Below, piece by piece: positions 2,938-57,673 of a stretch of 64,000 bases of DNA. The notes below the pieces were generated by a model that saw only the letters and a program-made list of their open reading frames with translations, searched no databases and was not told where the DNA came from. The stretch's first letter is position 1, and the number at the start of each line of letters is the position of its first letter. The translations under genes and the position numbers were made by a program. Location of the stretch: NCBI RefSeq assembly GCF_035046485.1, contig NC_085138.1:445323204-445387203 (forward strand). The letters are read 5' to 3'. Origin of the DNA: Aedes albopictus. Its lineage: Eukaryota; Arthropoda; Insecta; Diptera; Culicidae.

Positions 2938-3087
2938 TTACCGGGTCTTCTTCCGGATGGGGCGGATCCCATGCAGTTTCTGCATACAACAGGAGGGATC
3001 CTTCTCACTTTCATTTTGCGGGATCCCTCGCAGGCAATCAGATTCAGGCGGAATAAGGCTCATGTTGATAGGGGAAATTCGCGAATT
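2938..3087 (-). CDS. Gene A exon A39: alternative phase-0 terminal exon
   Basis: Acceptor ttatattgcag, then 49 codons from NSRISPINM to PIRKKTR and TAA, phase 0. No finger; two adjacent Cys and a basic C-terminus. A poly(A) signal follows 110 bp later. The matching phase and 3' signal suggest an alternative C-terminus for gene A if the A38 stop is skipped, 8 kb upstream. It could also be a chance open stretch. Confidence 0.45.
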   Translation of the reverse strand, partial: NSRISPINMSLIPPESDCLRGIPQNESEKDPSCCMQKLHGIRPIRKKTR

Positions 3088-4185
3088 CTGCAATATAATT
3101 AACATTCGATTAGTTATACTACAAAAAATGGAATAATCGTGCAAAACTTACCCCTGACTAAACCAGACCGCTCCAGACACTACAGCTCGTTTACCGCAGC
3201 AAGTTTTTAGTTGTTTTTTTTTTCACTCAGCTCGCAAGCGACTTCACGAAAAATTTCGTTTTTTTTCTAAAAAGCTGCAAATCGGTTTTCACAAATACCA
3301 ATGTGTGCAACAATATGGCAAACTGTTCAATTTAAGTGGCATACAGTGATATACACATGTTTAAGTGTGTTGCACAAATAAAATCACAAACCGTTTGAGA
3401 AAAGGTCATTCTATATTGCTACCATGCCTCTTGAGTTTTCATCACTATATTATTCAACAACTTCTGCACAATATATCATATTGTTACAGCTTTCTATGCG
3501 TTACATAGACCGTTCTTTATGATTGAATGCTTCGAGTTTCATAGTTTCAACATCAAAGCACCTGTTCGAGATACAGTAACAGTAACAGATAAAGGAGACA
3601 TACTGTGTGGATATTAACACAAACTGTATTTTATTATGCGGGTTGTTTAGTGAATAAAATTTTGCTATTTTCTATAGCCTAATCGAAAGAGCTAATTTTT
3701 CTGAGAATAACGTGATTTTATTGGATCCCAATACCTTTGTTTTGATGGGTAAATGAACAATGAAGAAGATTAGTTGGACACCTAAATGGTATGTAGAGAC
3801 CTCTGCGTCCTCTCTGGCCTAGACATCACTGGAATTTGGGTGTTGTTAATGGAAGGCTAAACTCCAAAGTATGAGTTTGGTAAACGTTCAGGTGCACAAA
3901 ATATTATTTTAATATTTTATTATATAGAAACGGCTGCCTGCATAAATCATCTGGTTTGTTTTTTTCATCTTGATCGCTCCAGAACAGTGGCCGAAATCTG
4001 GAATAGAAAACGGTGTTAACATCTTTCATTGAATAAGCTATTTGTGATACGTTTGCAACTGTTATGTATATACCTTACTATAATGTCTGCATCATATGAT
4101 AAACCTACCTGAATCCACCCGAAACAAGATGATTACTGATAAATAAACACTTAACACACGTAAACAAAAACACAGAAAAAAAAAC
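3088..4185. other. Intron between A38 and A39, no feature recognised
   Basis: A/T-rich sequence; no finger-type exon seen on either strand. Confidence 0.4.
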
Positions 4186-4269
4186 TACATCAAATCTTGA
4201 TCCTGGAATGTTCCTACAGGAGCCTGGCTACATTTGTTAGGAAAATAGCAAGATCAAAATTTGATGTAG
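4186..4269. repeat. 84-bp hairpin with CTACATCAAAT ends
   Basis: CTACATCAAATCTTGATC at the left is matched by GATCAAAATTTGATGTAG at the right, and pairing continues inward with few mismatches (the TTCCTA stretch on the left pairs with TAGGAA). Size and shape fit either a tiny MITE or a microRNA-like hairpin. No known microRNA recognised. Confidence 0.6.
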
Positions 4270-4339
4270 TAGATCTTACGCCGTAACGCACCATTCAAAG
4301 GTGATCTACCCACGTTACGGGATTGTTTTTTCTTGAATT

Positions 4340-5187
4340 CATTCCTTGTCAACTATTTGACGCTGTGTACTCGAGGCTTTAGTATCGGAGAGTCCCTCAT
4401 CAATACAGTCGAAATATTGATCTGTTTTTGAACTCCTCTTTTATGAAGGGATGCCCTGCTGCTTGATTCAGTCGGTTGCCAATCTTCGCTTTTCCAGCAA
4501 TCCTCGGGACATAAATACAACTCTCCTCTAAGGTACCCAACGGCTTCTACTTTGAGTCCACGAAATTTACTTGCAACACATCCGCAAAGTTCACTTCTCG
4601 TTTAGGGCTGTAGAATTTGCGGTCACTGGTCTTGAGCCGAGAAAAGACATGTGACTTGACTATCTGCATACCATCCTTGCCGTTTCCACGTCGAAACAAA
4701 TTCCGGGGTTCTTCTTTGCAGTTTTCTTCATTTCCAATCCTTTTTTCCACGTTCACTTAGCATTGGGCACTCTCTCTCTCCTAACCCAGATCTGGTTTCC
4801 GGGAATTTTAACACACGTCCATTTCTCACTTTCAGCGTTGTAGGACTCAGGAAGCCTTCCGGTACACCAGAGCGCTACATTTAACGAATCTTCGACTTTC
4901 TGACCCGCACACAAAAGCTGATCGAATAACTGTTCGAACGCAAAAATGCTTCTCAATATTGACATAATGCTGTTCAGGATTATTTTAAACAACTTTAGGC
5001 CCCATGAGGGACCACTTAGCCTTGAGATACGGACTTCAAATTTTGCTAAAACGATCATTTTCCAACAACAAAATTTTAATATATTCAATTTTTGCAAAAT
5101 ACGGGACGGCCTACTGTTTAGGACCTCACACGAAAATAAAAAAAAATCCCCAGTAAGACAACATTTTATGTCGAAGAACTGTGTCAC
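4340..5187 (-). mobile_element. Possible Ty1/copia-type retrotransposon relic
   Basis: Minus-strand reading gives FEQLFDQLLCAGQKVEDSL followed by GRLPESYNAES, which recalls the copia Gag signature of a short Gly-containing stretch and LPxSY. Downstream fragments in shifting frames (VEAVGYLRGEL) weakly recall the Gag-Pol junction. Many stops. Family call is tentative. Confidence 0.25.
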
Positions 5188-6039
5188 TCAAACTAAGCTC
5201 CGACATGCCATAAAAAGAAAATTCAAGGTAATGTCATAATCACATCTGTGTGTAAAAACTCTTTCAAAAATGAGTGCATGCACCTGAGAGTCGCTTTGAA
5301 AAATACGACAACTTTAAAAAAAAACCCGGATTGATCCACCTAGTGGTGATAGTGCCTTTCTCGACGAATATGTACCTTGATATGTACTCATGACGTTTCC
5401 GTTGACGTGAGCTGAAATGTTCCTGAATCATGAGAATACTTTACTTAGTTTTATCAGAGCCATCATTGCATCATTGAATTGACTTTAAACTTATTGATGG
5501 CACATATTCCGACGTTATGTTCAACGTATAGGCAGAGCTGGAAAATATCAGACCTCTCAGTTGACAGCTTGACCTCCTTCACTATCACTAGAGGCCGATC
5601 AACACCAAGACGATACAAATTTTTCACAAACACAGATACCTTAACGATTTTCGACAAAGAATTTTCTACACACTTCTACAAACGCTACATTTTATTATCA
5701 TGCATGTAAAATTTGACAAAAACATGCAAGTAACTGAAATTTTTCATACTGAATCCCATTCAACTTTCAACCACATTACAGTGCGTGAGGGAGCAACCAG
5801 TCGCACAAAAATTTTATGCAGTCATTTTAGACGCGAAAGAGAATTGAAAAAGTTTGTTCGGAGTTATTACGATAAATTTAAATTTTCCCATACAACGTTG
5901 ACCCATCCTTCTGCATTATTACATCTCAGGAATCTGAAATGGTGTGATTGGATGAGATCGTCTTAGTTTTGTCAAGATATCTATCGCTTGCTTTATTTTT
6001 TCTCACTTTTGAATTCCGACGAAGCACCCAACGCTCGTT

Positions 6040-7250
6040 TTATTTATTTCTTATTTCTTATTTATTTATTTGAAATTCAACGGACCCCTTTTGGTCTAAT
6101 TGAACTATTACTAACCTATCTAAAAATTACAATTTCAGCTCAATTGACAATTCACACGCTCACAGTTATCAGATGGACAATATAATCACAAAATGACAAA
6201 TTACCAAACTTCAATACTGTAACCAAAACTAGACGACGCATCGTTCCTATTATGTGAGTTACAGTGGTTCCCAATAATTGTTGTGAAACTCCCTGAAGTG
6301 CAATCCGCGAGGCCAAGAGGACGGTAGTAGCGCTGTTCGTTTCAGGCGCACGTTGATTCCAACTTTGAACGAAACAAACGGCATTGAACAAGAATCCTTC
6401 CAAGCTGGAACTAGCCTCTTTACTATGACGTCATCAGTTGATAAAGCTTCGCAGACCAATTTCAACACTTCTCGCTCAGTCAGGTAGTTTTTAATTCTCG
6501 TCAGAAAAAGCCAAAAACGATCGTTTGTAGACTGCTATTCCACGATACTGCTTGGAGAGCTCGTTCCTTTTGTGCCCTGCTGTATGTTAGGTAGCGTTTT
6601 CAACGACGACGATGACGACGACGACGACGACGCTGCGGATCGATCAACAGCCGGCGAATCCACAATACGAGAAGAGGTGGCAGTGGAAATAGCAAGCGAT
6701 TGATGAATGGCAATAACTTGTTGTTTCAGAGCTTCAATTTCGCCGTCAATGCGGGTGATCACGTCGACTTTTGGTGCACTTGTTGTAGGCTCGGCTTCTT
6801 TCATCGATGCACTGCGGTTCGAACGTTGCTGTACCTTCTTATCGCTGCAAGAGTTGCACATCCACCACATATTATGAGATCGACTGTATTTTATTAGCTC
6901 TTCATAACTCATCGTCACGCATGATGCGTGATAGACGTCGGTGCAAAATCCCTCGCATCCAATAGAGTTGAGGCCTGGGGCAATAACAAGCGAGCATTGT
7001 TTGCAGGTTGAAAGTTTGTCATCCATATTGACTAAGGCAGGCACAATACCGGAGACGATTGATGTTAATTGCAATTCCAGGATAATGCAAGTACTAACAC
7101 GAAAAACTTCTACACTATCACGAGCGTGATCGAACAAAAAGTAAATAATTGTACTGAGAACAAATTATTGGATGGTTTAACACACAATATTTCGACGATA
7201 TTCGCAGCAATCAAGAGTTTGCTAGACAGTATATCAACGCATACACACAT
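6040..7250 (-). mobile_element. ORF1-only non-LTR retrotransposon relic with ATAA-rich 3' tail
   Basis: An ORF1 (6256-7137) is followed after about 180 bp of 3' UTR by an A-rich tail with repeated AATAAATA on the minus strand near 6050-6080. No reverse transcriptase lies between, so ORF2 has been lost, as in half-LINE elements. The 5' edge is uncertain. Confidence 0.55.
6256..7137 (-). pseudogene. Retrotransposon ORF1 protein with PHD-like zinc finger, one internal stop
   Basis: Reading from 7137: a zinc-binding domain CKQC...GCEGFC...YHASC...WWMCNSC, of PHD type (about residues 45-97), a polar coiled-coil-prone middle (IDGEIEALKQQVIAIHQSL), a Ser run coded by a (GAC/GTC)n microsatellite, then TAG at 6532-6534. 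The same frame continues with a C-terminal domain (EREVLKLVCEALS, KRLVPAW, FVSFKVGIN, SWPRGLHFREF) to a stop at 6256. PHD-plus-FVSFK architecture is known from ORF1 of CR1-like non-LTR elements. ORF1 proteins bind RNA and assist retrotransposition. Confidence 0.7.
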
Positions 7251-7289: not shown

Positions 7290-8370
7290 GACTATTTTCT
7301 TGCTAACCGTTCATCAGGTTACCTAAGGAGCCGCGATTTGATGTGTCGCATGCATGTGTTTGGTTCACTTAAATATTTTGCGGTGGAGCGGGCCTGGTTT
7401 GATGGTTAGAACACAAGACTATCATGCCTGGGATCGAATCCCACTCCCGACATATTCACAAAATGTAGGTTCTTCCTTCGGAAGGGAAGGATCCCGAGAT
7501 GAACTAGCTTCGAGTTAAAAATCTCGTTAATAAAGACAAAAAAATAATATTTGGTCTCTTCCGGAGGGAACCCGGAACCGGTTCCGGAACACCACCGGTT
7601 GTCTCAAATATGGTCTAAAACTATTTTTTACTAACCATTCATCAAGTCGCCTAAGGAGCCGCGATTTAAAGTGTCGCATGCATGGGTTCGGTTCACTTTT
7701 ATATTTGGCCACAGCTGGCGGGACATACGGAACCGATTCCTGAACACTACCGGTAGAATCTTAGGTTTTCTGAGACTATTTTCTTGCTTATCATTCATCA
7801 AGTTATTGAAAAAGCCGCGACTTGATGTGTCGCATGCCTGGGTTTGCTTCACTGTTATATTTGGCCACTTCCGGCGGGACCTCCGGAACCGGTTTTGGAA
7901 CACCGGTAGTTTCTTATGTGATCTGAGACCATTTTCTTGCTAACCGTTCATCAGGTTATCGCAAAAGGCGCGATTTGACGTGTCGCTTGCATGGGTTTGT
8001 TTCATTTTTATATTTGTCCACTTCCGGCGGGACGCCCGAAACCGGTTCAGGAACACTACCGGTTCAGATATGATCTGAGACTATTTTCATGTTAACCGTT
8101 CATCAGGTTATTGAAAAAGCTGCGATTTGATGAGTCGTATGTATGGGTTTGGTTCACTTTTACATTTGGCCACTTCTGGTGGGACCTTCGGAACCGGTTC
8201 CGGAACATTACCGGTTCAGATATGGTCTGAGACTATTTTCTTGCTTACCGTTCACCATATTATCGAAAATGTCGTGGTTTGATGTGTCGCATGCGTGGGT
8301 TTGTTGCATTTTCATATCTAGCCCCTTCCTGGGGTACCGATCCGGAACGCCTAAATGGCCATAACTCCGG
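7290..8370. repeat. Tandem array of about 153-bp units, six copies
   Basis: The landmark GCCGCGATTTGATGTGTCGCA, or close variants, occurs near 7332, 7660, 7813, 7966, 8118 and 8271. Spacing is about 153 bp, except the first interval, which is enlarged by a SINE. Each unit also has CCACTTCCGGCGGGAC and GGAACCGGTTCCGGAACA. Confidence 0.8.
7387..7546 (+). mobile_element. Feilai-type tRNA-derived SINE
   Basis: Starts GGGCCTGGTTTGATGGTTAGA (box A), has GGGATCGAATCCCA (box B), then TTCCTTCGGAAGGGAAGG, GATGAACTAGC and ends AATCTCGTTAATAAAGAC plus A-rich tail, the layout of the mosquito Feilai family. Inserted in one unit of the 153-bp array. Confidence 0.8.
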
Positions 8371-10975: not shown

Positions 10976-10981
10976 TTTATT
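10976..10981 (-). promoter_or_regulatory. Poly(A) signal AATAAA after exon A38
   Basis: AATAAA on the minus strand, 85 bp after the A38 stop. Supports a short isoform or gene end near 10.95 kb. Confidence 0.6.
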
Positions 10982-11065
10982 GCAATCCAAAGCGATTCGT
11001 ATTTTGTCTACAGTGTATTTTTCTTTTAATCAGTAAAATTCTAAATACATTTAAATGCTTACCTT

Positions 11066-11179
11066 TCAACCATCGGTTTTCTGCGTATGAGTTAGATGAT
11101 GGCGATTCAAACATGTTTTGAAATAAAACACTTTGGGGCAGTATGCACATTTATGTAGCGGATCGCCGTGTGCCACAAT
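11066..11179 (-). CDS. Gene A exon A38: finger completion, last C2H2 finger and stop
   Basis: IVAHGDPLHK closes the A37 finger, then CAYCPKVFYFKTCLNRHHLT-H, ending KTDG and TGA at 11066-11068. A poly(A) signal lies 85 bp further on, so this can be a terminal exon. Yet a strong donor-like AAAG|GTAAGC begins three bases after the stop, at the place where the other exons have theirs. So the exon may once have been internal, or may still be spliced. Confidence 0.85.
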   Translation of the reverse strand: MVAHGDPLHKCAYCPKVFYFKTCLNRHHLTHTQKTDG

Positions 11180-11248: not shown

Positions 11249-11323
11249 TATGTGGTAACGCTTTCTTCTCGGAGTGGGAAACCCGAGGCCACATCTTTCA
11301 CACTTATATCTGCCTTTCGTTTC
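11249..11323 (-). CDS. Gene A exon A37: first half of a split C2H2 finger
   Basis: A 25-codon exon, ETKGRYKCERCGLGF to KRYHI, donor ATA|GTAGGT. HI replaces HM at the split. Confidence 0.85.
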
Positions 11324-11396: not shown

Positions 11397-11966
11397 CGGA
11401 GGGCGACTTCTATCCACTGGTGTACTTTTAAGAGTTGCGGCCATATCTCTCGCTGCTTGATGGCGTTTCTCATGCTTGCGGCGATTGTCCTTAGTGCCGA
11501 ATGTTTTAGGACACTCAGAACATTGAAATGGTGCAAGCTTTGTTTCCTTTCCCTGACTTTCGAGGATCGCTCTTTCTTTCGCTAATTCATGGCGTTTCTC
11601 ATGTTTGCGGCGATTTTCCTTAGAATTGAATGCTTTAGGACATTCACCGCATTTGAATGTAGGTACTTCCTTCTTTGTTTCCTGCGGAGGAATTGTTGCC
11701 ATTCTGAGAGTTTCGACGACCGCCTGTACTTTCGCTATTTGATGACGTGTTTCGTGCTTACGGAGATTTTCCATAGAATCGAATGATTTAGGACATTGAG
11801 AACATTTGAATGTAATGACTTCCTTCTTTGTTTCCGGCGGTATCTTTTTAATAGCTGCTGATTTATTCTTCCGGTGAGTTCTTTTGTGTTGTATGAGACT
11901 TTGTTCGAGATAGAACGCGCTCGGACATAGTGAACACTGGAACAGATATTCCCTGTGGCTCTCCAC
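11397..11966 (-). CDS. Gene A exon A36: finger completion plus four C2H2 fingers
   Basis: The largest exon, 190 codons. VESHREYLFQ completes the A35 finger; then come fingers starting CSLC, CSQC, CGECPKAF and CSECPKTF, the last three in an internal repeat of about 50 codons with RKHEKRH cores separated by linkers such as PPQETKKE and KETKLAP. Ends SRPP before GTAATG. Internal triplication without introns differs from the rest of the locus. Confidence 0.89.
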
Positions 11967-12030: not shown

Positions 12031-12108
12031 CATGTGATAGTAGTTTTCTCTACTGGTGTTAAACTGGAGACCACAATGCACGCAGGTTTGCACAATTGGT
12101 GAATGGAA
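12031..12108 (-). CDS. Gene A exon A35: first half of a split C2H2 finger
   Basis: A 26-codon exon, FHSPIVQTCVHCGLQF to ENYYHM, acceptor ttcctcttccag, donor GTAAG. Paralogue of A20. Confidence 0.87.
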
Positions 12109-12518: not shown

Positions 12519-13010
12519 CAAATATTATTAGATTTTACACAACGTTTCGACCAATGATTTAATCTTCTTCAGGGGGTTTATCGATATTATCGTTCCTTGT
12601 CATTTTTTTTACATAAACTTTTTTTACGAAGAGCGATAATATCTTCTTCTTCTTCTTCTTCTTCTTCTTCTTCTTTATGGCTCGACGTTCGCATTGGAAC
12701 TAGGCCTGCCTCGCTTCAACTTAGTGTGCTTAATTGCACTTCCACAGTTATTAATTGAAGGGCTTTCTTTGCCTGCCATTGCATGAATTTGTACATTGTG
12801 TGGCAAGTACAATGTTACACTATGCCCAGGGAGTCGAGAAAATTTTCCCGACTGGAACGGGAATCGAACCCGCCGTCTCCGAATTGGCGATCCATAGCCT
12901 TAACCACTAGGCTAACTGGAGACCCCATAATATCGACGATAATATCTATAACACTTTTTAAGAAGATTAAACAAGTGGTCGAAACGTTGTGCAAATTCGA
13001 ATCATATTTT
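12519..13010. mobile_element. Foldback element with ACAACGTTTCGACC arms, split by a SINE
   Basis: Left arm holds CACAACGTTTCGACCAATG and AATCTTCTTCAG; right arm holds AAGAAGATTAAACAAGTGGTCG and AAACGTTGTGCAAAT. The centre contains GATAATATC repeats and an inserted SINE. Confidence 0.65.
12646..12928 (-). mobile_element. tRNA-derived SINE with (GAA)n tail
   Basis: On the minus strand: GGTCTCCAGTTAGCCTAGTGG (box A region), GGCGGGTTCGATTCCCG (box B), a unique body containing AACTGTGGAAGTGCAATTAA, and a tail of about ten GAA units, seen as CTT repeats on the plus strand. Confidence 0.75.
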
Positions 13011-20986: not shown

Positions 20987-21235
20987 CTGCAATTGCGATG
21001 CATCTGCTTCGAAGTCGTTCTTTTTGCACTCAACAGCAGTATGTTCAACTCCCCTTTCGACGTTGTTAGCTTTATTTTCCTTAGTTTCACTTTCGTCGTT
21101 GTTCAGTCCAGCAGCGTTGCCACGATCCGTTCCATTTTTCCGGTGATTTGCCAGATGACGCTCCAGATGATGAATGTAGAAAAATGGTTTCGTACAAACG
21201 GTGCACACGAATGCAGGCTCTGAGTGGGCTACCAC
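20987..21235 (-). CDS. Gene A exon A34: finger completion, one C2H2 finger and acidic tail
   Basis: An 83-codon exon: VVAHSEPAFV, CTVCTKPFFYIHHLERHLAN-H, then an acidic Asn-rich tail ending SQLQ before GTAAG. Third member of the A30/A32 group. An 8.9-kb repeat-filled intron follows. Confidence 0.86.
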
Positions 21236-21308: not shown

Positions 21309-21365
21309 CATATGATGACTCTTTTGACTTGGTGTTTTCAAAACGTAACCACAAATGCTACACGG
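21309..21365 (-). CDS. Gene A exon A33: first half of a split C2H2 finger
   Basis: A 19-codon exon, PCSICGYVL to KSHHM, then GTAAG. The usual Phe of the finger core is Leu here. Confidence 0.85.
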
Positions 21366-21837: not shown

Positions 21838-22209
21838 CTGCAAATGCGACGTTTCGTATGCACTTGATCCAGTTGTTTTGTTTTCCTCCATTCTCTTTTC
21901 ATTCGCGGTTCCATTAGCTGCTTTCCTTCCAACGTAGTTAATTGACACAGAGCCGTCAACCTTATTTCCATCAGTTTTGCTTTCGTCATTTTTGTTCTCA
22001 TTGGCTGTGATCGAGTCAGTTTTAACGAGTTTACTTTTATTTTCGTCGGCGCTTTCAAGTTTACGCTTATTGCTATTGCTGACTTTCTTTCCCTCCGGCG
22101 GGACCGTTTGATTTTCGTGGCTTTTTAGATGACGCCTTAGATGATTCCGGTAGAAGAACGGCTTCGAACACATGGGGCAATGGAACTTCGGTTTGGTATG
22201 GGTTGTCAA
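21838..22209 (-). CDS. Gene A exon A32: finger completion, one C2H2 finger and acidic tail
   Basis: A 124-codon exon: LTTHTKPKFH, CPMCSKPFFYRNHLRRHLKS-H, PPEGKKV, basic NKRKLE, then a Lys/Asp/Asn tail ending SHLQ before GTAAG. Exact length match to A30 with many tail replacements. Confidence 0.87.
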
Positions 22210-22278: not shown

Positions 22279-22335
22279 CATATGGTGCTCCTTTTTGCCG
22301 ACTGTATCAAACTGGCGACCGCATATGGTGCACGG
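22279..22335 (-). CDS. Gene A exon A31: first half of a split C2H2 finger
   Basis: A 19-codon exon, PCTICGRQF to KKEHHM, then GTAGG. Acceptor ends ctag. Paralogue of A29. Confidence 0.86.
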
Positions 22336-23012: not shown

Positions 23013-23384
23013 ATGCGAATGCAATAAACTGCTGTTGGCGCTTGATCCGGTAGTGTTGCCTTCCTCCATTCCCTTTTCATTTGCTTCATTATCCTCTTTA
23101 TTTGCCTCATTTCTGCTCACATCTGCTTCCGTTTCACCATCTTCGATTTCCACCGATTCATTTTTGCTTTCATCAGTTTCTTTTTCATCTGCTGTGTTTG
23201 CATCAGTTTTGCTACTATTTGCATCCTTCCTTATATGTTTACGTTTAATGCTCAACACTTTCTTTCCATCAGGCGGGATCGTTTTATTTTTATGGCTTCT
23301 TAGATGACGAGACAGATGATAACTGTAAAAGAACGGCTTCGAACACATAGGGCAATGGAACTTGGGTTCCGAATGAGCTGTCAA
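23013..23384 (-). CDS. Gene A exon A30: finger completion, one C2H2 finger and acidic tail
   Basis: A 124-codon exon: LTAHSEPKFH, CPMCSKPFFYSYHLSRHLRS-H, then PPDGKKV, a basic stretch (IKRKHIRK, possible nuclear signal) and a long Glu/Asp/Asn tail ending LLHSH before GTAAGT. Same length as A32. Confidence 0.87.
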
Positions 23385-23447: not shown

Positions 23448-23504
23448 CATATGGTGCTCCCTTTTGCCGATTGTATAAAAATGATGACCGCAAATGTTAC
23501 ACGA
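23448..23504 (-). CDS. Gene A exon A29: first half of a split C2H2 finger
   Basis: A 19-codon exon, SCNICGHHF to KREHHM, then GTAAG. Acceptor ends ccctag. Paralogue of A31 and A33. Confidence 0.86.
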
Positions 23505-24424: not shown

Positions 24425-24511
24425 CTTCATGCTTGAAGCTTTCAAACGTTCCGCGTCTTGCTCGCTGGAAGGTTCCTCATTTTGAAACGATGACTCCTCG
24501 TCTGCATCCAT
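24425..24511 (-). CDS. Gene A exon A28: short acidic linker exon
   Basis: A 29-codon exon, MDADEESSF to ASSMK, then GTAAG. Phase 0 both sides. No domain. It joins the acidic block to the A29 half finger. Confidence 0.65.
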
Positions 24512-24599: not shown

Positions 24600-24947
24600 C
24601 TGAACTTCCGCTGAATCTGTGACTTCGGAAATGTCCATTTCATCAGCTTTTGTCTCTGTCAAGCTCTCATCGGGTTTGGTGCCATCAACTTTGCTGTCTT
24701 CAGTTACATTTTCTTCTGGAATAGTGTCCGAAATCTGCATTTCTTCGGTTTTGATAGCCATTTTCTCGTCAATATTGGCTTCAACCGTTTCGATGTGTTC
24801 ACTTTTACTTTCATCTACTTTTGCTTCGTTCTCATCAACCTTATTTTCCTTGGTTTCACTTTGATCGGCTTTAGTCTCTTCACATCGTTTTTCAACAGGT
24901 TCAGTTATATCCGCCTGAACTTCTGTTTTATTTCCTTCGGAGGACAG
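24600..24947 (-). CDS. Gene A exon A27: acidic linker exon, no finger
   Basis: A 116-codon exon starting LSSEGNKTE and ending SAEVQ before GTGGGT. Repeats the A26 pattern (NKVDENEAKVDESKSE, MAIKTEEMQ), so the two arose by duplication. Predicted highly charged and disordered; role unknown. Confidence 0.72.
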
Positions 24948-25110: not shown

Positions 25111-25356
25111 CGTCGAATCTGTGGGATCCGGAAGGTTTACCGAAACGTCCATAGCTTCAGTTTTGATTGCCATTTTCGCATCATCGTTGGCTCCATCGGT
25201 TTTGATATCTTCACTTTTACTTTCGTCTACTTTAGCTTTGTTTTCATCAACCTTATTTTCATTGGTTTCATTTTCATCCATTTTATCCTCATCGGCGTTC
25301 TTAATCTCTTCGCTTCGTTCTTCATCAGTTTCTTTAGGTTCTTCCTTAATTTTCAG
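25111..25356 (-). CDS. Gene A exon A26: acidic linker exon, no finger
   Basis: An 82-codon exon starting LKIKEEPKE and rich in Glu, Asp, Lys and Asn, with repeated KVDEN/KVDES units and MAIKTEAMD. LKIKEEP and AIKTE fit SUMO-type motifs. The acceptor (gatag) has a weak pyrimidine tract; the donor ACG|GTAAG is strong. Shares its core with A27. Confidence 0.72.
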
Positions 25357-28819: not shown

Positions 28820-28954
28820 CGTGGGATCTATGGAGTTCGCCAGATAATCCTGTTCGCTATGTGGAAGTTTCTCATGACGTACCAGACTGTTCTTGTGGAA
28901 AAATATTTTCGGGCATTGAGAACATTTGAACAAATTTTCTTCGTGCTCCTTCGT
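28820..28954 (-). CDS. Gene A exon A25: finger completion plus one C2H2 finger
   Basis: A 45-codon exon: TKEHEENLFK, CSQCPKIFFHKNSLVRHEKLP-H, ending NSIDPT before GTAAG. The copy of A23 has a few replacements outside the Cys/His ligands, so both still look functional. Confidence 0.88.
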
Positions 28955-29016: not shown

Positions 29017-29073
29017 CATATGCTTCAACTTTTCCTCTTTACTGGGAAAATCCTGTCCACATTTCGAGCATAT
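29017..29073 (-). CDS. Gene A exon A24: first half of a split C2H2 finger
   Basis: A 19-codon exon, ICSKCGQDF to KLKHM, then GTGAG. Duplicate of A22 about 1.7 kb away. Confidence 0.87.
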
Positions 29074-30494: not shown

Positions 30495-30629
30495 CGTAGG
30501 ATCTATGGAGTTTGCCAGATAATCCTGTTCGCTATGTGGAAGTTTCTCATGACGTACCAGACTGTTCTTGTGGGAAAATACTTTCGGGCATCGAGAACAT
30601 TTGAACAAATTTTCTCCGTGCTCGTCCGT
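30495..30629 (-). CDS. Gene A exon A23: finger completion plus one C2H2 finger
   Basis: A 45-codon exon: TDEHGENLFK, CSRCPKVFSHKNSLVRHEKLP-H, ending NSIDPT before GTAAG. Differs from A25 at only a few codons. Confidence 0.89.
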
Positions 30630-30692: not shown

Positions 30693-30749
30693 CATATGCT
30701 TCAACTTTTCCTCTTTACTGGAAAACTCCAGTCCACATTTCGAGCATGT
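30693..30749 (-). CDS. Gene A exon A22: first half of a split C2H2 finger
   Basis: A 19-codon exon, TCSKCGLEF to KLKHM, then GTAAG. Nearly identical to A24, including flanking intron, from a recent tandem duplication. Confidence 0.88.
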
Positions 30750-30818: not shown

Positions 30819-30941
30819 CTCCTCGGCGTCTGCCACCGGTCGTTTCTTATGCGTTTGTTTGTGACGGTCAAGACTTTGTTGGAGAATGAACGCACTTGGA
30901 CATTCGGGACACTGGAACAGCGAGTCCCGATGTTTCTCCAC
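30819..30941 (-). CDS. Gene A exon A21: finger completion plus one C2H2 finger
   Basis: A 41-codon exon: VEKHRDSLFQ, CPECPSAFILQQSLDRHKQT-H, basic then acidic tail ending DAEE before GTAAG. Parallels the start of A36 (VESHREYLFQ, PSAFYLEQSL). Confidence 0.88.
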
Positions 30942-31007: not shown

Positions 31008-31085
31008 CATGTGATAGTAGTTCTCTCTGCTAGTGGAGAACTGTTCACCGCAATCCTTACAGATGTGAGGCCTCAGTACTTTAGA
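31008..31085 (-). CDS. Gene A exon A20: first half of a split C2H2 finger
   Basis: A 26-codon exon, SKVLRPHICKDCGEQF to SRENYYHM, then GTAGG. Same length and ending as A35 (SRENYYHM), so A20/A21 and A35/A36 are paralogous pairs. Confidence 0.87.
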
Positions 31086-31247: not shown

Positions 31248-31592
31248 CTGTGCCGATTCTTCACCAGTCAGTGATGCGTTCTGTAACTCATCGTCATCTG
31301 GTTGAGCACTGGTCTGTTCTGTTGCAGAAGTTGCTGATACGCTGCGGGGTTCACTACCAGATGGCGTTGCGCTCCTTGATTGTTGACGAACTGGTGGCGC
31401 ACTTGGTGTTGTCGGGTTTTCACCAGCAGTAAGAGGTGATGCGATGCCAGGTTCGATTTTGATTCGAACTGCAGTGTTCTCTTCTGTAAGTGTTTGTGGT
31501 GTTCTGTGTACCGTACTTTCATGACGTTGGAGAGAATATTTGCGGCAGAACAATTTTTGGCAAATTGAACATTGGTATGTTAAATCCGATGA
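31248..31592 (-). CDS. Gene A exon A19: single-finger C2H2 exon with long Ser/Thr/Pro tail
   Basis: A 115-codon exon, the longest of the single-finger set: SSDLTYQC, CSICQKLFCRKYSLQRHESTV-H, then about 85 residues rich in Ser, Thr, Pro and Gln with VRIKIEP (SUMO-type) and a DDDE patch, ending ESAQ before GTAAG. Confidence 0.88.
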
Positions 31593-31715: not shown

Positions 31716-31937
31716 TTTTGGACTTGGGTCAATCGATGATTCTCCAGTTGATTGGGCATTGTTCTCTTCTGTAAAACCTCTTGGAGTACTTGGTAGTTCG
31801 CTACTAGTTGCTGATGGGCTGGTCGGCTCTTGCTTGATTGATATTGCATTATGTACCAGTTGCTCATGACGCAGGAGAAAATGTTCACCGGAGAACATTT
31901 TTGGACAACGTGAACATTTGAACGTTGTCTTTGCTGG
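31716..31937 (-). CDS. Gene A exon A18: single-finger C2H2 exon
   Basis: A 74-codon exon: PAKTTFKC, CSRCPKMFSGEHFLLRHEQLV-H, tail with ISIKQEPTSP, a good SUMO-type motif next to Ser-Pro, ending DPSPK before GTAAG. Confidence 0.88.
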
Positions 31938-32280: not shown

Positions 32281-32496
32281 CATTGATTCAATCGGGATTT
32301 CTACAATTGGTCGTGCGTCGCTCTCTTTTTTGATAGCTGCTGATGCGACGGGTGGCTCACTACTAGTTGCCGACGCGTTGTTCGATTCTTGGCCAATTGG
32401 TGATGCATTGTGCATCACTTGCGTATGACGTAGGAGAAAATGTTCATGGGAAAACATTTTTGGACAAAGTGAACAGTGAAACAGAGATTCCACTGA
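32281..32496 (-). CDS. Gene A exon A17: single-finger C2H2 exon
   Basis: A 72-codon exon: SVESLFHC, CSLCPKMFSHEHFLLRHTQVM-H, tail with AAIKKESD, which fits a SUMO-attachment consensus (hydrophobic-K-x-E), ending IESM before GTAAG. Confidence 0.87.
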
Positions 32497-32810: not shown

Positions 32811-33011
32811 CTTCGTACTCGGTTCGATCGGGTTTCCTCCGGTTGCTGGTGGTGCGCTGGAGGGTTCACTACCAGCTGGTGATGCCAATGCCGCCGGTTC
32901 TTGGCCAATAATTGGTGCACCCCCGTGCACTAAATTGGCATGACGTTGGAGATAATGTTCGTGGGAAAACATTTTTGGGCAAAGTGAACACCGAAACAGT
33001 GTTTCCGCTGG
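32811..33011 (-). CDS. Gene A exon A16: single-finger C2H2 exon
   Basis: A 67-codon exon: PAETLFRC, CSLCPKMFSHEHYLQRHANLV-H, then Ala/Pro/Gly-rich tail ending PSTK before GTAAG. Its 5' neighbour is a plus-strand retrotransposon starting only about 45 bp upstream of the acceptor. Confidence 0.88.
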
Positions 33012-33053: not shown

Positions 33054-34665
33054 AGCGAAGGAGCACCCAGGAACAGGATTAACATAATGGATGACAGTCA
33101 AGCAGTGGAACCACCAACACTGGATGAGGTTAAAAAGGCCCTTAAGGAGCTGAAAAACAGCAAGGCTGCTGGGAAGGACGAGATCCCGGTCGAACTTCTT
33201 AAGCACGGAAACGAGCAGCTACATCAATCAATCCACCAGATTATTATAAAGATTTGGGAGGATGAAGAATTGCCCACTAGTTGGTTGGATGGCCTCATAT
33301 GCCCAATCTACAAGAAAGGGCACAGACTGGAGTGTGCCAATTACAGAGGGATTACCCTTTTAAATTCGGCGTATAAGATACTGTCGCGTATCCTGTTCAA
33401 CAGACTACGACCTCTTGAGGAGTCCTTCGTCGGCGAATACCAGGCTGGTTTTCGTGAGGGCCGATCAACGACGGATCAAATGTTTACCCTGCGGATGATC
33501 CTAGATAAATTTCGGGAATATAACTTGCAGACTCACCATCTGTTCATTGATTTTAAAGCAGCGTACGATTCAGTGAAAAGAAATGAGCTTTGGCAGATAA
33601 TGTCAGAACATGGTTTTCCGGCGAAACTAATTAGGCTGATACGCGCAACGCTGGATGGATCAAAATCAAGTATTCGGGTCGCGGACGAAGTGTCTACGTC
33701 GTTTGTGACCTTGGATGGATTGAAGCAGGGGGATGCTCTTTCAAATTTATTGTTCAACATTGCACTCGAAGGAGCGATTAGGAGGTCAGGCGTGCAGAGG
33801 AATGGCTCTATCATCACACGGTCGCACATGCTCCTCGGTTTTGCGGACGATATTGATCTCATCGGCATCGATCGTAGGGCAGTGGAGGAAGCTTATGCTC
33901 CTCTGAAGAGAGAGACAGCGAGGATAGGCTTGACGATTAACTCTACCAAGACGAAGTACATGATAGCGGGTAGAGACAGAAGCAGGCCTATTGGTGTTAG
34001 TGCTGAGGTAGTGATTGATGGGGAAGTGTTTGAAGTTGTTGAAGAATTTGTTTATCTTGGAACACTTGTGACATGTGACAATGACGTTTCCCGTGAAGTG
34101 AAAAGGCGTATTGCAGCTGCGAATAGGGCCTTTTACGGATTGCGTAGCCAGCTTAGGTCCCGTAACTTGCAAACGCAAACAAAATTCGCTCTGTATAAGA
34201 CGCTGATTCTTCCGGTTGCCCTCTACGGTCACGAAGCGTGGACGTTAAAGGAGGTAGACCGAAAAGCTTTTGGAGTTTTTGAGCGCAAAGTGCTGCGGAC
34301 AATTCTCGGTGGGAAACAAGAAAATGGAGTGTGGCGCAGACGCATGAATCACGAGTTGTACCAAGTGTACGAAGATGCGAATATTGTGAAACGTATAAAA
34401 TACGGCAGACTTCAGTGGGCTGGACACGTAGTGCGAATGTCGGAAGAAAGAATAGCGAAAACAATATTCAGCAGAGAACCCGGTAGAGGTAGGCGACTTC
34501 GTGGGCGGCCGCGAACTCGCTGGCTGCACGCGGTTGAAGAAGATCTACGATCCCTACACGTTCGGGGAAACTGGAGGAACATCGCCCAAGACCGACGAAG
34601 ATGGAGCTCTACTATACGCTCGGCATTGGAGTAAAGTTACTTTGTAGCCAACAAGGTATCAAGGT
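33054..34665 (+). mobile_element. 5'-truncated non-LTR retrotransposon
   Basis: Contains the reverse-transcriptase frame 33087-34634 but no endonuclease. Inserted on the strand opposite to gene A in the A15-A16 intron. The short 3' end after the stop reads TAAAGTTACTTTGTAGCC. Clade not settled; the RT style suggests an RTE- or CR1-like group. Confidence 0.75.
33087..34634 (+). CDS. Reverse transcriptase of a non-LTR retrotransposon (515 codons, 5'-truncated)
   Basis: Copies element RNA into DNA at the target site. Visible motifs: LKNSKAAGKDEIPVELL near residue 25, HLFIDFKAAYDSV (catalytic Asp) near 152, LKQGDALSNLLFNIALE near 212, and FADDID with the catalytic Asp pair near 252. The C-terminal part has LYGHEAWTL, WRRRMNHELY, WAGHVVRM and a GRPRTRWL ending, as in insect endonuclease-reverse transcriptases. 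The frame is intact from its first Met, but the N-terminal endonuclease is absent, so the product cannot act alone. The absence of stops suggests recent insertion. Confidence 0.85.
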   Translation: MDDSQAVEPPTLDEVKKALKELKNSKAAGKDEIPVELLKHGNEQLHQSIHQIIIKIWEDEELPTSWLDGLICPIYKKGHRLECANYRGITLLNSAYKILSRILFNRLRPLEESFVGEYQAGFREGRSTTDQMFTLRMILDKFREYNLQTHHLFIDFKAAYDSVKRNELWQIMSEHGFPAKLIRLIRATLDGSKSSIRVADEVSTSFVTLDGLKQGDALSNLLFNIALEGAIRRSGVQRNGSIITRSHMLLGFADDIDLIGIDRRAVEEAYAPLKRETARIGLTINSTKTKYMIAGRDRSRPIGVSAEVVIDGEVFEVVEEFVYLGTLVTCDNDVSREVKRRIAAANRAFYGLRSQLRSRNLQTQTKFALYKTLILPVALYGHEAWTLKEVDRKAFGVFERKVLRTILGGKQENGVWRRRMNHELYQVYEDANIVKRIKYGRLQWAGHVVRMSEERIAKTIFSREPGRGRRLRGRPRTRWLHAVEEDLRSLHVRGNWRNIAQDRRRWSSTIRSALE

Positions 34666-40923: not shown

Positions 40924-41067
40924 CTTTGTATTTAGCGTTGATGGTGCGATTAGAGGTTCCGGAAGAAGTTGTGGTTCACCATGTATGGTTTTTACATGCC
41001 GATCAAGATTGTGCTTAAAGGTAAACGCTTTCGGACAAATCGAGCATGGAAACGATGAAGGCGCTTG
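40924..41067 (-). CDS. Gene A exon A15: single-finger C2H2 exon
   Basis: A 48-codon exon: QAPSSFPC, CSICPKAFTFKHNLDRHVKTI-H, short Pro/Leu-rich tail ending LNTK before GTAAG. Followed by a 7.9-kb intron holding repeats and a reverse-transcriptase insertion on the opposite strand. Confidence 0.86.
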
Positions 41068-41187: not shown

Positions 41188-41415
41188 CTGTGGACTTGGT
41201 GGAACCGGAGTTTTTCCAGCCAGCTGCACGCTACTTTCTTCGTTAGAAGCTACTGAAACGCTGCGTGGCTCACTTCCAGCTGGGGATGCGGCGATCGATT
41301 CTGCACCAATTGCTGCTGGTGGCACTCCGTGCATCAACTGCTCATGACGAAGGAGATAATGTTGATGGGAAAACATTTTCGGACAACGTGAACATTTATA
41401 CGAGGATTGCACTGG
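41188..41415 (-). CDS. Gene A exon A14: single-finger C2H2 exon
   Basis: A 76-codon exon: PVQSSYKC, CSRCPKMFSHQHYLLRHEQLM-H, tail with SPAGSEP also found in A16, ending PSPQ before GTAGG. Recent duplication with A16 to A18 is likely. Confidence 0.88.
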
Positions 41416-41489: not shown

Positions 41490-41690
41490 CGTAGTACTTG
41501 ATGTAGTCGAGTCTTTTCCCGTAGGTTGGGAGCTGCTCTCCTCTGTGGAAGTTGCCGATGCGTTGGTCGAGTCTTGATCAATGATTGGTGGTGGTGGTGC
41601 ATTGTGCATCGCTACTTCATGGCGTTGAAGATAATGCTTGTGGGAGAACATTTTGGGGCAAAGCGAACATTGGAAAGATGTTTCCGGTGG
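41490..41690 (-). CDS. Gene A exon A13: single-finger C2H2 exon
   Basis: A 67-codon exon: PPETSFQC, CSLCPKMFSHKHYLQRHEVAM-H, then proline run PPPP and a Ser/Thr-rich tail. Donor ACG|GTAAG. One of the near-identical CPKMFSH group (A13, A14, A16, A17, A18). Confidence 0.88.
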
Positions 41691-41773: not shown

Positions 41774-41956
41774 CTTTGAACTTGGTGTATTCGAAGTTTC
41801 TTCGATTGGTTGTTCACTGTTCTGTTTTGCGGGAGTTGCTGATACGTTGGGTTGCTCGATTCGAGATGCCCTGTGCACTGTGCTTTCATGGCGTTGGAGA
41901 GAATGTTTGCGGAAAAACGGTTTTTGGCAGTACGAACATTCATACGATTTCGATGG
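41774..41956 (-). CDS. Gene A exon A12: single-finger C2H2 exon
   Basis: A 61-codon exon: PSKSYEC, then CSYCQKPFFRKHSLQRHESTV-H and a Gln/Ser/Thr/Pro tail ending TPSSK before GTAAG. The finger is nearly the same as in A19 (HSLQRHESTVHR against YSLQRHESTVHR). Confidence 0.87.
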
Positions 41957-42064: not shown

Positions 42065-42274
42065 CTCTGCACTTGATTCCGATGGTTCGGCAACATCAGT
42101 TGGCGATGTGCTGGGTGGTGGTGGTTCACTATCAGCAGTAGGCGATGTGTTGTTCGATTCTCGGGGAGTTGATGGCCCTGCGTTGTGAACCTTTCTCTCA
42201 TGATGCAGGCGACTACGATTGTGAGAAAACTTTTTCGGGCAATGTGAACATGGAAAAGCTGGTTCTGCATGCTG
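42065..42274 (-). CDS. Gene A exon A11: single-finger C2H2 exon with Ser/Pro tail
   Basis: A 70-codon exon with finger CSHCPKKFSHNRSRLHHERKV-H, then a Ser/Pro/Glu-rich tail ending SSAE before GTAAG. A CAGCAG acceptor allows a start one codon later, still phase 0. The right frame is proved by the Cys/His spacing; another frame is open for longer but has no family pattern. Confidence 0.85.
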
Positions 42275-45247: not shown

Positions 45248-45251
45248 GGAG

Positions 45252-47129: not shown

Positions 47130-49630
47130 ATTATCTCCTGGGCGCCCATTAAAAACACCATCCCCGGCGAAGACTGGCGCTCGAGCCTAGCTATTTAGCA
47201 CTGTAGTTGAAGGAAACGCCAATGCAGAACCCGTAGCTTCCGGGAAGGTAAGCCCAGCTCCCTGGGTTAGTGGGTTGGTGTCAGGCCCTGCGAGCCAGCC
47301 GTAAAAAAGACTAGCACCGGAAAATCAACAAGAGAAGAATGCGAACCGATCATACCATCTACCAGAGTTGCGGCAACACACGTGAGCTGGGAACAGCTTT
47401 TATAGTGATGGGTGACATGCAGAGGCGCGTGATCGGGTGGTGGCCGATCGACGAAAGAATGTGCAGGTTGAGGATCAAGGGCCGATTCTTCAACATTAGC
47501 ATAATAAACGTGCACAGCCCTCACTCTGGCGCTAATATCGACTCCGATTACTACCTGGTGATGGTTAAACTGCGCCCAAAACTCTCCGTTATTAACAATG
47601 TACATTACCGGCGGCCGCCCCGGTACGACCTAGAGCGACTGAAGCAACCAGATGTCGCTACCGCATACGCGCAGAATCTCGAGGCAGCGTTGCCGGACGA
47701 GGGTGTGCTCGATGTGGCCTCTGACCTTTTTAGAGGACTGCTGGAGTACAGTCAAAGCAGCCATCTACAACGCAGCCGAGAGCACTATCGGGTACGTAGA
47801 ACGGAGTCGACGAAACGATTGGTTCGACGAGGAGTGCAGAGCGGTTCTGGAGGAGAAGGATGCAGCGCGGGCGGTAATGCTGCAGCATGGAACCCGACAG
47901 AATGTGGAGCGATACAGACAGAAGCGGAAGCAGCAGACCCGTCTCTTCCGGGAGAAAAAGCGCCGCCTGGAAGAAGCGGAGTGCGAGGAAATGGAACTGC
48001 TGTGCCGTTCACAGGAAACACGCAAGTTCTACCAGAAGCTCAACGCATCCCGCAAAGGCTACGTGCCGCAAGCCGAAATATGCAGGGATAAGGAAGGGAG
48101 CCTCCTGACGGACAAACGTGAGGTGATCGAAAGGTGGAAGCAGCACTTCGACGAGCACCTGAATGGCGAAGAGAATGTAGGCACGGAGGACCAAGGCAGC
48201 GGAGGAAATGACTATGTTGGTGCAGCAGAGGACGGGAACGAACCAACTCCCACGCTGAGGGAAGTTAAGGATGCCATCCACCAGCTCAAAAACAACAAAG
48301 CGGCTGGTAAGGACGGTATCGCAGCAGAACTCATCAAGATGGGCCCGGAAAAGTTGGCCACCTGTCTGCACCAGTTAGTAGTCAAGATCTGGGAAACCGA
48401 ACAGCTACCGGAGGAGTGGAAGGAAGGGATAATCTGTCCCATCCACAAGAAAGGCGACAAGTTAATGTGTGAGAACTTTCGTGCGATCACCATTTTGAAT
48501 GCCGCCTACAAAGTGCTATCCCAGATCATCTTCCGTCGTCTTTCACCTAAAGTAAATGAGTTCGTGGGAAGTTACCAAGCCGGTTTCATCGACGGCCGGT
48601 CGACAACGGACCAGATCTTCACCGTACGGCAAATCCTCCAGAAATGCCGTGAATACCAGGTCCCAACGCATCACCTGTTCATCGACTTCAAACCAGCATA
48701 CGACAGTATCGACCGCACAGAGCTATGGAAAATTATGGACGAGAACAGCTTTCCCGGGAAGCTGACTAGACTGATAAGAGCAACGATGGACGGTGTGCAG
48801 AACAGCGTAAGGATTTCGGGTGAACTATCCAGTTCATTTGAATCTCGACGGGGACTACGACAAGGTGATGGACTTTCCTGCCTACTATTCAACATCGCTT
48901 TGGAAGGTGTGATGCGACGAGCCGGGCTCAACAGCCGGGGTACGATCTTCACGAAATCCAGCCAATTTGTCTGTTTTGCGGATGACATGGATATTATTGC
49001 TAGAACATTTGGAACGGTGGCAGAACTATACACCCGCCTGAAACGTGAAGCAGCAAAGGTCCGGTGGTGAATGCGGTTAAGACAAAGTACATGCTGGTAA
49101 GTGGAACTGAGCGAGACAGGACAAGCCTTGGCAGCAATGTTACGATAAACGGGGATACTTTCGAGGTGGTAGAAGAATTCGTCTACCTCGGTTCCTTGCT
49201 AACGGCGGACAAAAACGTGAGCCGTGAAATACGAAGGCGCATCATCAGTGGAAGTCGTGCCTACTATGGGCTCCAGAAGAAACTGCGGTCAAAAAAGATT
49301 CACCCCCGCACCAAATGTACCATGTACAAGACGTTAATAAGACCGGTGGTTCTCTACGGACACGAGACATGGACGATGCTCGAGGAGGACCTGCAAGCAC
49401 TCGGAGATTTCGAGCGACGGGTGCTAAGGACGATCTTCGGCGGCGTGCAGGAGAACGGTGTGTGGCGGAGAAGGATGAACCACGAGCTCGCTGCACTTTA
49501 TGGCGAACCCAGCATCCAGAAAGTGGCCAAAGCCGGAAGGATACGATGGGCAGGGCATGTTGCAAGAATGCCGGACAACAACCCTGCAAAGTTGGTGTTT
49601 GCTAACCATCCGGTTGATGAAATTAAATGA
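47130..49630 (+). mobile_element. Degenerate non-LTR retrotransposon with endonuclease remnant
   Basis: Inserted between copies of the ATGGCGGCCA repeat. Preserves part of the 5' end, the start of the APE-like endonuclease, then RT. 3' truncated after NNPAKLVFA. Shares style with the 33-kb element but is a different lineage by sequence. Confidence 0.8.
47300..49630 (+). pseudogene. Broken endonuclease / reverse transcriptase frame
   Basis: APE-type endonuclease opening (RTDHTIYQSCGNTRELGTAF, IINVHSPHSG) is joined directly to ANIDSDYYLVMVKLRP, the end of that domain, so its middle, with catalytic residues, is deleted. The frame shifts between about 47715 and 47745, then runs through KNNKAAGKDGIAAELI, HLFIDFKPAYDSI, LRQGDGLSCLLFN and FADDMDII. 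A second shift near 49062 precedes VNAVKTKYM, LYGHETWTM and WAGHVARM. A copia-like or LTR origin is excluded by these motifs. Confidence 0.8.
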
Positions 49631-52844: not shown

Positions 52845-52970
52845 CTTTGCATGTGGATCAATGGATCGATTGGATCCCACCCCGTGCACCGATCTCTCAT
52901 GATGCAGGCGAGAACGATTGTGGCAAAACGTTTTCGGGCAATATGTACATTGGAAACGTGATTCCGTTTG
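52845..52970 (-). CDS. Gene A exon A10: single-finger C2H2 exon
   Basis: A 42-codon exon with one complete finger, CTYCPKTFCHNRSRLHHERSV-H, and a short tail to AAG|GTAAG. It lacks a partner half-finger exon. The finger closely resembles that of A11, 10.6 kb away, so the two are probable duplicates separated by later repeat insertion. Confidence 0.86.
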
Positions 52971-53190: not shown

Positions 53191-53370
53191 TTCTGTATGC
53201 AGCGAATCGTCCACCTTCGGACTCTCATCTGTAATGATCCGCCTTCTGTATTGCGAACGGACCATTTGCTTTCCATGGTGGGATTGTAGATGACGTCTCA
53301 TTTTGATAGCATAGACGAAGATTTCCGGGCATTCCGTACACCGATATCGTGCAACTTTGTGAACTTCCAT
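53191..53370 (-). CDS. Gene A exon A9: finger completion plus one C2H2 finger
   Basis: A 60-codon exon. MEVH closes the A8 finger, then CTEC...HLQSH, followed by a basic stretch (QYRRR) and an acidic end before GTAAG. The basic stretch could be nuclear-targeting, which is only inference. The opening ATG lies inside a finger and is not a likely start. Confidence 0.86.
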
Positions 53371-53435: not shown

Positions 53436-53492
53436 CATGTGGTACCACTTTTTCACCTTTGAATTAAATTGCTCTGCACAAATCTTACACTT
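53436..53492 (-). CDS. Gene A exon A8: first half of a split C2H2 finger
   Basis: A 19-codon exon, KCKICAEQF to KKWYHM, then GTTAG. Same length and split position as A4. Confidence 0.86.
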
Positions 53493-53644: not shown

Positions 53645-53758
53645 CTCAAACTTCTTCACTCGTTCGTGAACTTTTTGGTGGCGCGAGAGAGCAAATGAGT
53701 AAAAGAACCGTTTAGGACAGCTGGCACATTTGTACTTCGGTTCTCCGTGGGCAGTCAG
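53645..53758 (-). CDS. Gene A exon A7: finger completion plus one C2H2 finger
   Basis: A 38-codon exon: LTAHGEPKYKC, then CASC...HQKVH and a short basic tail ending KKFE before GTAGG. Phase 0 both sides. Confidence 0.87.
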
Positions 53759-53823: not shown

Positions 53824-53880
53824 CGTATGATGGTGTCTGATTTTTCTATTAGGAAACTGGCGGTTGCATTGATAGCACGT
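53824..53880 (-). CDS. Gene A exon A6: first half of a split C2H2 finger
   Basis: A 19-codon exon, TCYQCNRQF to RHHHT, with HHT in place of the commoner HHM. Acceptor ttcag, donor ACG|GTAAG. Completed by LTAH in A7. Confidence 0.86.
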
Positions 53881-55744: not shown

Positions 55745-56575
55745 ATAATCCATTGTACTTACTAAAGTAGTTGTTATATATTTCATATAAGTTTGGATGG
55801 CCCCGACTGATATTATGATGTCCATTGAACATTCAGAAGATTAATGCGACATGATAGATTACAAATTGTAGCTTTTTAATGAAGGAAGCTACCATTACAA
55901 CCGTAGACTTTACGATCTAAACTCAAGAATAGTTTGGATGACCTACGATATTCCAACAGATCTAATATTGTCTATTGAATTTGCAGAAGCCTTACTGGAC
56001 ATGATAGATTACAAATAGTAGCTTTGTATAATGAAAGAAGTTACTGTTACATCCATAGACTTTAGGATCTAAACTCAACAACACAGTTTGGATGACCTAG
56101 GATATCCTGACTGATCTGATACTGTCTATTGAACTTTAAGAAGATTTACTGGACATGACAGATTACAAATCGTAGCTTTGTATACTGAAAGAAGTTACCG
56201 TTACACCCGTAGACTTTAGGATCTATACTCAAAAACAGTTTGGATGGCCTAGAATATCCCGACTGATCTGATACTGTCTATTGAACTTTAAGAAGACTTA
56301 CTGGACATGATAGATTACAAATCGTAGCTTTGTATACTGTTAGAAGTTACCGTTACACCCGTAGACTTAAGAATCTTAACTCAAGAACAGTTTGAATGAC
56401 TTAGGATATTCTGATTTATCTGATACTGTCCATTCATCTTTCAGAAGACTCACTGGACATGATAAGATTACAAATCGTAGCTTTGTATACTTAAAGAAAT
56501 AACCGTTACACCCGTAGACTTTAGGATCTAAATTCAAGAATAGTTTGGATGACCTGGGATATCCAGGATATCCAT
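55745..56575. repeat. Tandem repeat, about 150-bp units, five or six copies
   Basis: ATGATAGATTACAAATCGTAG, or a close variant, recurs near 55850, 56000, 56155, 56308 and 56458, followed each time by CCGTAGACTTTAGGATCTA and AGTTTGGATGACCT. Confidence 0.8.
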
Positions 56576-56728: not shown

Positions 56729-56887
56729 CACTGATCGCATTGGGTCCAATGGTTTCTTCTCCTGAGGAGGCAAATAGCCCAATTCGTGCTTCAGGTGAAT
56801 CAATTCGTGGCGCTTCAGTTCGGATTTAAAGTAAAATGGCCGGTCACATTTAGCACATGGGAATTGCGGCTCGCCGTGCACGGTAAG
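56729..56887 (-). CDS. Gene A exon A5: finger completion plus one C2H2 finger
   Basis: A 53-codon exon. LTVHGEPQF completes the A4 finger and carries the classical HGEP-type linker; CAKC...HELIH follows. The tail ends MRSV before GTAAG. Followed by a 2.8-kb intron made of tandem repeats. Confidence 0.88.
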
Positions 56888-56981
56888 CTGGAGGGGAAGA
56901 AAAAACGAACCGTTGAAGCCACGCCACAATCATTTTGAATTTGTGTGTAAACAGGTTTTATAAGACACGAATAGTAGTTAC

Positions 56982-57038
56982 CATATGACGTCGTCGCCGT
57001 TCAATGCTGGAAAACGGAAGACTACAAACCGTGCACAG
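56982..57038 (-). CDS. Gene A exon A4: first half of a split C2H2 finger
   Basis: A 19-codon exon, LCTVCSLPF to RRRRHM, then GTAAC. Exact 57-bp length and the HM ending match A8, A22, A24, A29, A31 and A33, showing one duplicated exon type. Confidence 0.87.
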
Positions 57039-57196
57039 CTGAAGGTTTAGTTTTGTGCCACCATTATCAATTATGTCGAAGAAATGAGAAAGAATAATAA
57101 GTTATTTATTACGTAAATAGCTGCATCCGTGAATATGTACGATTGTACATGCAACATCACTTCAAGTTTAAACATTAAATTTCCAAGAGACATTAC

Positions 57197-57337
57197 CCTG
57201 ATTTTTGCAGGATCTATCTGCGACTCCAGTTGTTGTTCCTTTTCGTGGAACTGTAAATGGCGCAAATACGGCTTTTTTTGGTTAAAACCTTTCGGACAGA
57301 GGGTGCATTTGAAGCGCCGCTCTGTGTGAACTATTTT
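57197..57337 (-). CDS. Gene A exon A3: finger completion plus one C2H2 finger
   Basis: A 47-codon exon. KIVH closes the A2 finger, a TERRF linker of the usual H-x-E type follows, then CTLC...HLQFH and an acidic tail to a GTAATG donor. Phase 0 at both ends. Confidence 0.87.
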
Positions 57338-57405
57338 CTGTAATAGTTTTAAGTGACGTTAGATAAACATACAGTTTTTGAACTTTAAATTATGAAGTTA
57401 CTCAC

Positions 57406-57468
57406 AACATGATCGTTAAGTCTGTACAGGTTAGGAAATTCGACTTCACAAATGGGGCATTTTTGCGG
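57406..57468 (-). CDS. Gene A exon A2: first half of a split C2H2 finger
   Basis: A 21-codon exon beginning PQKCPICEVEF and ending RLNDHV before a GTGAG donor. It supplies the two Cys and the first His. The second His comes from A3 (KIVH), giving C-X2-C-X12-H-X4-H spacing across the splice junction. Confidence 0.85.
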
Positions 57469-57538
57469 CTGAAATGAGAAAGCGATTGTTTTCATTGTTT
57501 CCTAATGGGATTTCAATGACAGAACCAACTGTATGTAC

Positions 57539-57673
57539 CTCATTTGCTGTTGGATCTGTGGCCTTTAGCGGTATATTCCTGTGATGAGTTCTCCTATGTT
57601 TCAGCAGTAAACTTCTTATGTGGAACCACTCGTCGCATTCTGGGCATTTGAAGCGAGGTAGCATATGAACGTG
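57539..57673 (-). CDS. Gene A exon A1: second half of a finger plus one full C2H2 finger
   Basis: A 45-codon exon with acceptor cttacag and donor GAG|GTACAT. It opens with HVHMLPRFKC, where an early His completes a finger begun upstream, then carries CPEC...HRRTH and ends with a short polar linker. The exon giving the first half of that finger was not found up to 64 kb, so A1 is the first visible exon and not the first exon of the gene. Confidence 0.82.

Follow-up and report, generated by a model that had tools for sequence, protein, structure and literature searches.

A probable single long zinc-finger gene in Aedes albopictus: an array of 38 symmetric exons probably grown by duplication

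The window studied here is a 64,000-nucleotide stretch of the Aedes albopictus genome (assembly GCF_035046485.1, contig NC_085138.1, forward-strand positions 445,323,204 to 445,387,203; positions below are counted within it). Its minus strand carries, from 57,673 to 11,066, an array of 38 exons, most of which encode C2H2 zinc fingers or parts of them, and all of which (38/38) are in phase 0 at both ends. A sequence-only reading had raised two possibilities for such an array: one giant poly-finger protein, or a repertoire of proteins assembled from interchangeable cassettes in the manner of Dscam or lola. We favor the first. With a probability of roughly 0.85, the array – about 46.6 kb as it lies in the window – is the downstream portion of a single gene, LOC109407604, whose exons are mostly spliced in genomic order and which has grown by duplication. 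The product would be one very long C2H2 protein of about 2,550 amino acids and about 45 fingers. If so, tandem exon duplication within a single linear gene is enough to produce a conspicuous series of symmetric exons, and combinatorial splicing need not be invoked.

The annotated product and its reading frame

When the 38 exons are joined, the product contains 38 C2H2 fingers (defined by regular expression), which bears out the earlier estimate of about that number. Searching with this joined protein retrieved LOC109407604 isoform X5 (P0001), an uncharacterized Aedes albopictus protein of 2,552 amino acids and, by regular expression, 45 fingers. Of the 38 exons, P0001 has 36, all matching at 100% and in genomic order, which supports a giant poly-finger protein from this locus. 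The frame closes at the TGA at 11,066. The two exons absent from P0001, 24 and 25, align only to those of its residues that derive from exons 22 and 23. Residues 1–515 are encoded outside the window; as a tblastn query they gave no match in the window above 57,700, and only paralogous matches elsewhere. A gene start at the ATG at 57,664, in exon 1, was considered and rejected, P0001 having those 515 residues ahead of exon 1. The other boundary also moves: the array had been drawn as a 55-kb run reaching 2,938, whereas the annotated protein stops at 11,066, and the segment 3,087–2,939, which we took to be the last exon of that run, was found neither in P0001 nor in P0002, the product of the downstream paralogue LOC109407606.

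Exons 1–37 (37/38) end in a phase-0 donor, and exon 38 alone ends in a stop. The symmetry reappears when sites are chosen without regard to phase. Best-scoring splice sites picked around 35 finger blocks fell in phase 0 for 34/35 acceptors and 33/35 donors; of the three sites that deviate, one is the acceptor of exon 17, which is a tie, and the others are the donors of exons 36 and 37. At all three it is the phase-0 site that matches the annotated protein. In an exon listing blind to finger motifs (acceptor at least 5, donor at least 8, open frame), 37 of 76 candidates on the minus strand were of class 0-0, a set that contains overlapping variants and three entries from the next gene, against 1 of 10 on the plus strand. 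The phase-0 symmetry claimed by the sequence-only reading therefore holds, for 38 exons; its 39 exons could not be matched to ours one to one.

The protein is probably a plain poly-C2H2 protein with a role in nucleic-acid binding, to judge from its domains. P0001 matches PF00096 (E=1.9e-85), and a Pfam scan of P0001 and P0002 to an E-value of 0.01 returned zinc-finger families and one sub-threshold domain of unknown function (DUF), with no match to BTB, zf-AD (PF07776) or KRAB (PF01352). Comparison with solved structures gave ordinary C2H2 proteins, the best being ZNF568, a result that does not discriminate among the readings discussed below.

Two shorter annotated models cover the middle of the array without a break: P0016 (exons 11–25), which lacks exon 10 and includes exons 24–25, and P0017 (exons 11–23), which like P0001 lacks 24–25. 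Over exons 11–25 the window and P0016 differ at 7/329 sites within fingers and at 46/515 sites within linkers (Fisher p=3.3e-5), which suggests that the fingers are under constraint in an expressed protein. At the base-contact positions within fingers, 2/60 sites differ, and there is therefore no sign of fast change at the contacts. Across the 45 fingers of P0001 these positions make up 39 distinct residue sets.

Half-finger modules and their duplication

The array follows a grammar. Twelve exons (type a) end one residue past the first zinc-binding histidine; twelve others (type b) open with three residues and the second histidine, then run through another finger into a tail: one a exon plus one b exon makes a two-finger module, the first finger of which is interrupted by an intron. 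In transcriptional order, with all coordinates on the minus strand and the a exon given first, the modules are exons 2–3 (57406..57468, 57197..57337), 4–5 (56982..57038, 56729..56887), 6–7 (53824..53880, 53645..53758), 8–9 (53436..53492, 53191..53370), 20–21 (31008..31085, 30819..30941), 22–23 (30693..30749, 30495..30629), 24–25 (29017..29073, 28820..28954), 29–30 (23448..23504, 23013..23384), 31–32 (22279..22335, 21838..22209), 33–34 (21309..21365, 20987..21235), 35–36 (12031..12108, 11397..11966) and 37–38 (11249..11323, 11066..11179). Exons 30, 32 and 34 add an acidic tail to the b design, exon 36 holds four full fingers, and exon 38 is the last coding exon, with the TGA stop. One codon past that stop lies a strong donor-like site, AAG/GTAAGC (11063–11068, minus strand), which may be left over from a time when this b exon was internal.

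Beyond the pairs there are ten single-finger exons, numbers 10 (52845..52970), 11 (42065..42274), 12 (41774..41956), 13 (41490..41690), 14 (41188..41415), 15 (40924..41067), 16 (32811..33011), 17 (32281..32496), 18 (31716..31937) and 19 (31248..31592); exon 1 (57539..57673), which carries the MLPRFKCPEC finger and whose first residues finish one that starts upstream of the window; and three acidic exons that encode no finger, 26 (25111..25356), 27 (24600..24947, related to 26) and 28 (24425..24511).

The earlier claim that any subset of exons could be joined is right for the reading frame and wrong for the fingers. All a-to-b joins (144/144) give CX2CX12HX4H, whereas no a-to-a join gives a finger (0/132) and only 12/168 pairings of an a exon with anything other than a b exon fit even a loose finger pattern. 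Because the first finger of a module is divided between its a and b exons, intact fingers require that modules be lost as wholes. The introns between a and b exons are short in all twelve cases (62–94 nt), as would fit constitutive joining; the remaining 25 introns range from 69 to 10,570 nt.

One module pair records a duplication directly. Exons 22–23 and 24–25, including the intron, are 92–94% identical (a exon 53/57, b exon 127/135, intron 57/62), and by this likeness 24–25 is a recent tandem duplicate of 22–23. The copies differ by nine non-synonymous and two synonymous codon changes, numbers too small to support a claim of positive selection. Among the other exons, nearest neighbors mostly share module type. 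If modules arose by duplication, then the shared phase was mostly inherited and does not represent 38 independent events. The argument that so many symmetric exons are rare by chance is correspondingly weaker, since duplicates of one another cannot count as independent draws of phase, although the symmetry itself is real.

Further evidence comes from LOC109407606, a tandem paralogue that begins at 1,075 in the window and encodes P0002 (2,201 amino acids). When the 37 exons that have a match on P0002 are ordered by their best hits, the longest non-decreasing run is 17, a length that none of 20,000 shuffles reached, 16 being their maximum. With exons 10–19 set aside the run is 17 of 27, again reached in 0/20,000 shuffles. 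The matches of single-finger exons 10–19 are scattered on P0002, a sign that this block may have expanded on its own. P0001 and P0002 share the same protein start, have 12 CX2CX12HX4H pairs each and are largely alike in module order; they are nevertheless only 36–42% identical over 23–39% of the query, and 38% identical in full alignment. The pair design recurs in P0052 (oocyte zinc finger protein XlCOF7.1, Aedes albopictus; 1,229 amino acids), which has seven such pairs and differs from P0001 in its start, with local identity of 19–27%. Protein searches, which were limited by length and shared words and so are no proof of absence, returned no close relatives outside Aedes albopictus; the gene family may be young or fast-changing.

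Taken together, we propose that the gene grew by tandem copying of three kinds of unit – the two-exon a/b module, the one-exon single-finger module and the acidic exon – with duplication accounting for the older copies as well as the recent one. Uniform phase would then be a by-product, because gain or loss of a unit leaves the frame unbroken only if the unit is 0-0. Loss of an entire module (the recent copy 24–25, for example) would spare the other fingers, and splicing would be mostly constitutive. Lineage-specific growth is a known trait of C2H2 genes (PMC10547256, PMC6444547), and the locus fits this pattern as a further member. Among the titles and opening lines of abstracts surveyed on tandem or symmetric zinc-finger exons, none concerned this gene or showed the half-finger design, and neither LOC109407604 nor LOC109407606 appears by number in the literature searched. 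The locus would offer a clear natural case for the growth of long zinc-finger arrays, with a half-finger grammar, one recent duplicate module and a neighboring paralogue of largely the same order to study it by.

Points against a single linear gene, and the alternatives

Several observations count against a single gene with mostly constitutive splicing. Each annotated protein is a computed model rather than a long read. The label isoform X5, and the membership of P0001 in a 90% cluster of 18 sequences (that of P0002 has 13), mean that further isoforms exist. Five introns of the array exceed 2.8 kb. By the weights of our own analysis, low scores fall on the acceptors of exons 4, 29, 31 and 33 (1.0–3.0) and on the donors of exons 3, 36 and 37 (4.5–5.1). 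A further model, P0018, is missing exons 1 and 4 together with part of exon 3 and terminates out of frame within exon 7. In P0019, which models the paralogue, some 260 residues of P0002 are absent; some differences of this type are possibly assembly faults. Finally, the AATAAA at 10976..10981 (minus strand), a possible poly(A) signal about 85 nt past the stop of exon 38, is weak evidence for an end there, because the motif is common here by chance.

Regulated skipping of modules is the alternative that survives best, though we consider it unlikely. Here too there is one gene and one order, but the inclusion of one- and two-finger modules would vary with tissue and yield a set of related long proteins that differ in their binding sites: a device by which cells tune a DNA-reading protein through regulated loss of modules. 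The 38/38 symmetric exons would allow it, and fingers survive module-wise loss. Models do differ by modules (exons 24–25 are missing from P0001 and P0017 and present in P0016, exon 10 is missing from P0016), the clusters of 18 and 13 sequences leave room for more, and the weak acceptors fall on four a exons. Yet few modules differ among the annotated models, and P0018, with part of exon 3 and all of exon 4 gone, breaks fingers and resembles a model error more than regulation. The introns between a and b exons, short in 12/12, are what constitutive joining would be expected to show. Were skipping nevertheless regulated, the tiger mosquito would possess a tandem pair of such genes that gains new modules by exon duplication.

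Considerably less probable is that the array comprises several smaller adjacent zinc-finger genes that computed models have merged. Exon groups lie up to 10.6 kb apart, two of the large introns contain reverse-transcriptase frames, and partial models are annotated, P0018 for the 5' part and P0016 and P0017 for the middle. Against this, P0001 joins all groups in one frame, every exon group except the last closes with a phase-0 donor, and the paralogue P0002 is likewise one long model of largely the same order. Poly(A) signals within 300 nt past the next in-frame stop follow 15/38 exons, compared with a mean of 14.3 at random places: there is no excess, and therefore no sign of hidden alternative ends.

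A bank from which each transcript takes one or a few cassettes, as the sequence-only reading had proposed, is scarcely tenable: phase-0 symmetry and the capacity of any a exon to rebuild a finger with any b exon (144/144) agree with it, but half-finger exons restrict skipping to whole modules if fingers are to survive, the Pfam scan of P0001 and P0002 lacks a BTB match, a donor rather than a stop closes 37/38 exons, poly(A) signals stand at the random level, P0001 carries 36 exons, and the sole shorter products of the locus in word-limited searches at about 1,150–3,670 and 430–1,380 amino acids are P0016, P0017 and P0018. Drosophila lola is likewise a large insect locus with many zinc-finger exons, and loci of its type have a BTB/POZ domain in a shared N-terminal part; here there is instead one linear chain with no BTB match, and in place of alternative terminal exons with their own ends there are phase-0 donors. 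Dscam has mutually exclusive exon clusters, arrays of duplicated exons. LOC109407604 shares the duplicated array, whereas its annotated products, which are computed models, show no choice of one exon per cluster.

Neighboring gene and other elements in the window

The first three coding exons of LOC109407606 lie in the window on the minus strand, at 668..1075, 246..593 and 124..177. The third encodes a half finger in which one of the two usual zinc-binding cysteines is missing; by eye, this cysteine is kept in the matching part of LOC109407604. Between the two genes, a 209-amino-acid open frame (6538–7164, minus strand) has a cysteine pattern that by eye is PHD-like, with no Pfam match.

Two open frames matching RVT_1 lie antisense within two long introns of the array, at 33054–34631 (E=8.2e-31) and 47643–49067 (E=4.7e-25), both on the plus strand. 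A weak tRNA-family match in Rfam (12857–12914, minus strand; 29.9 bits against a cutoff of 29), at which ARAGORN calls no tRNA, is perhaps a tRNA-derived short interspersed element (SINE). A degenerate 24-bp repeat forms many short arrays in introns and flanks, from 9364 to 30161 and near 50841, 54159 and 58132, and many of these look alike in unit by eye. Two further arrays (7547–8329 and 55802–56564) each have a period of 152 bp and about five copies; by eye, their units differ.
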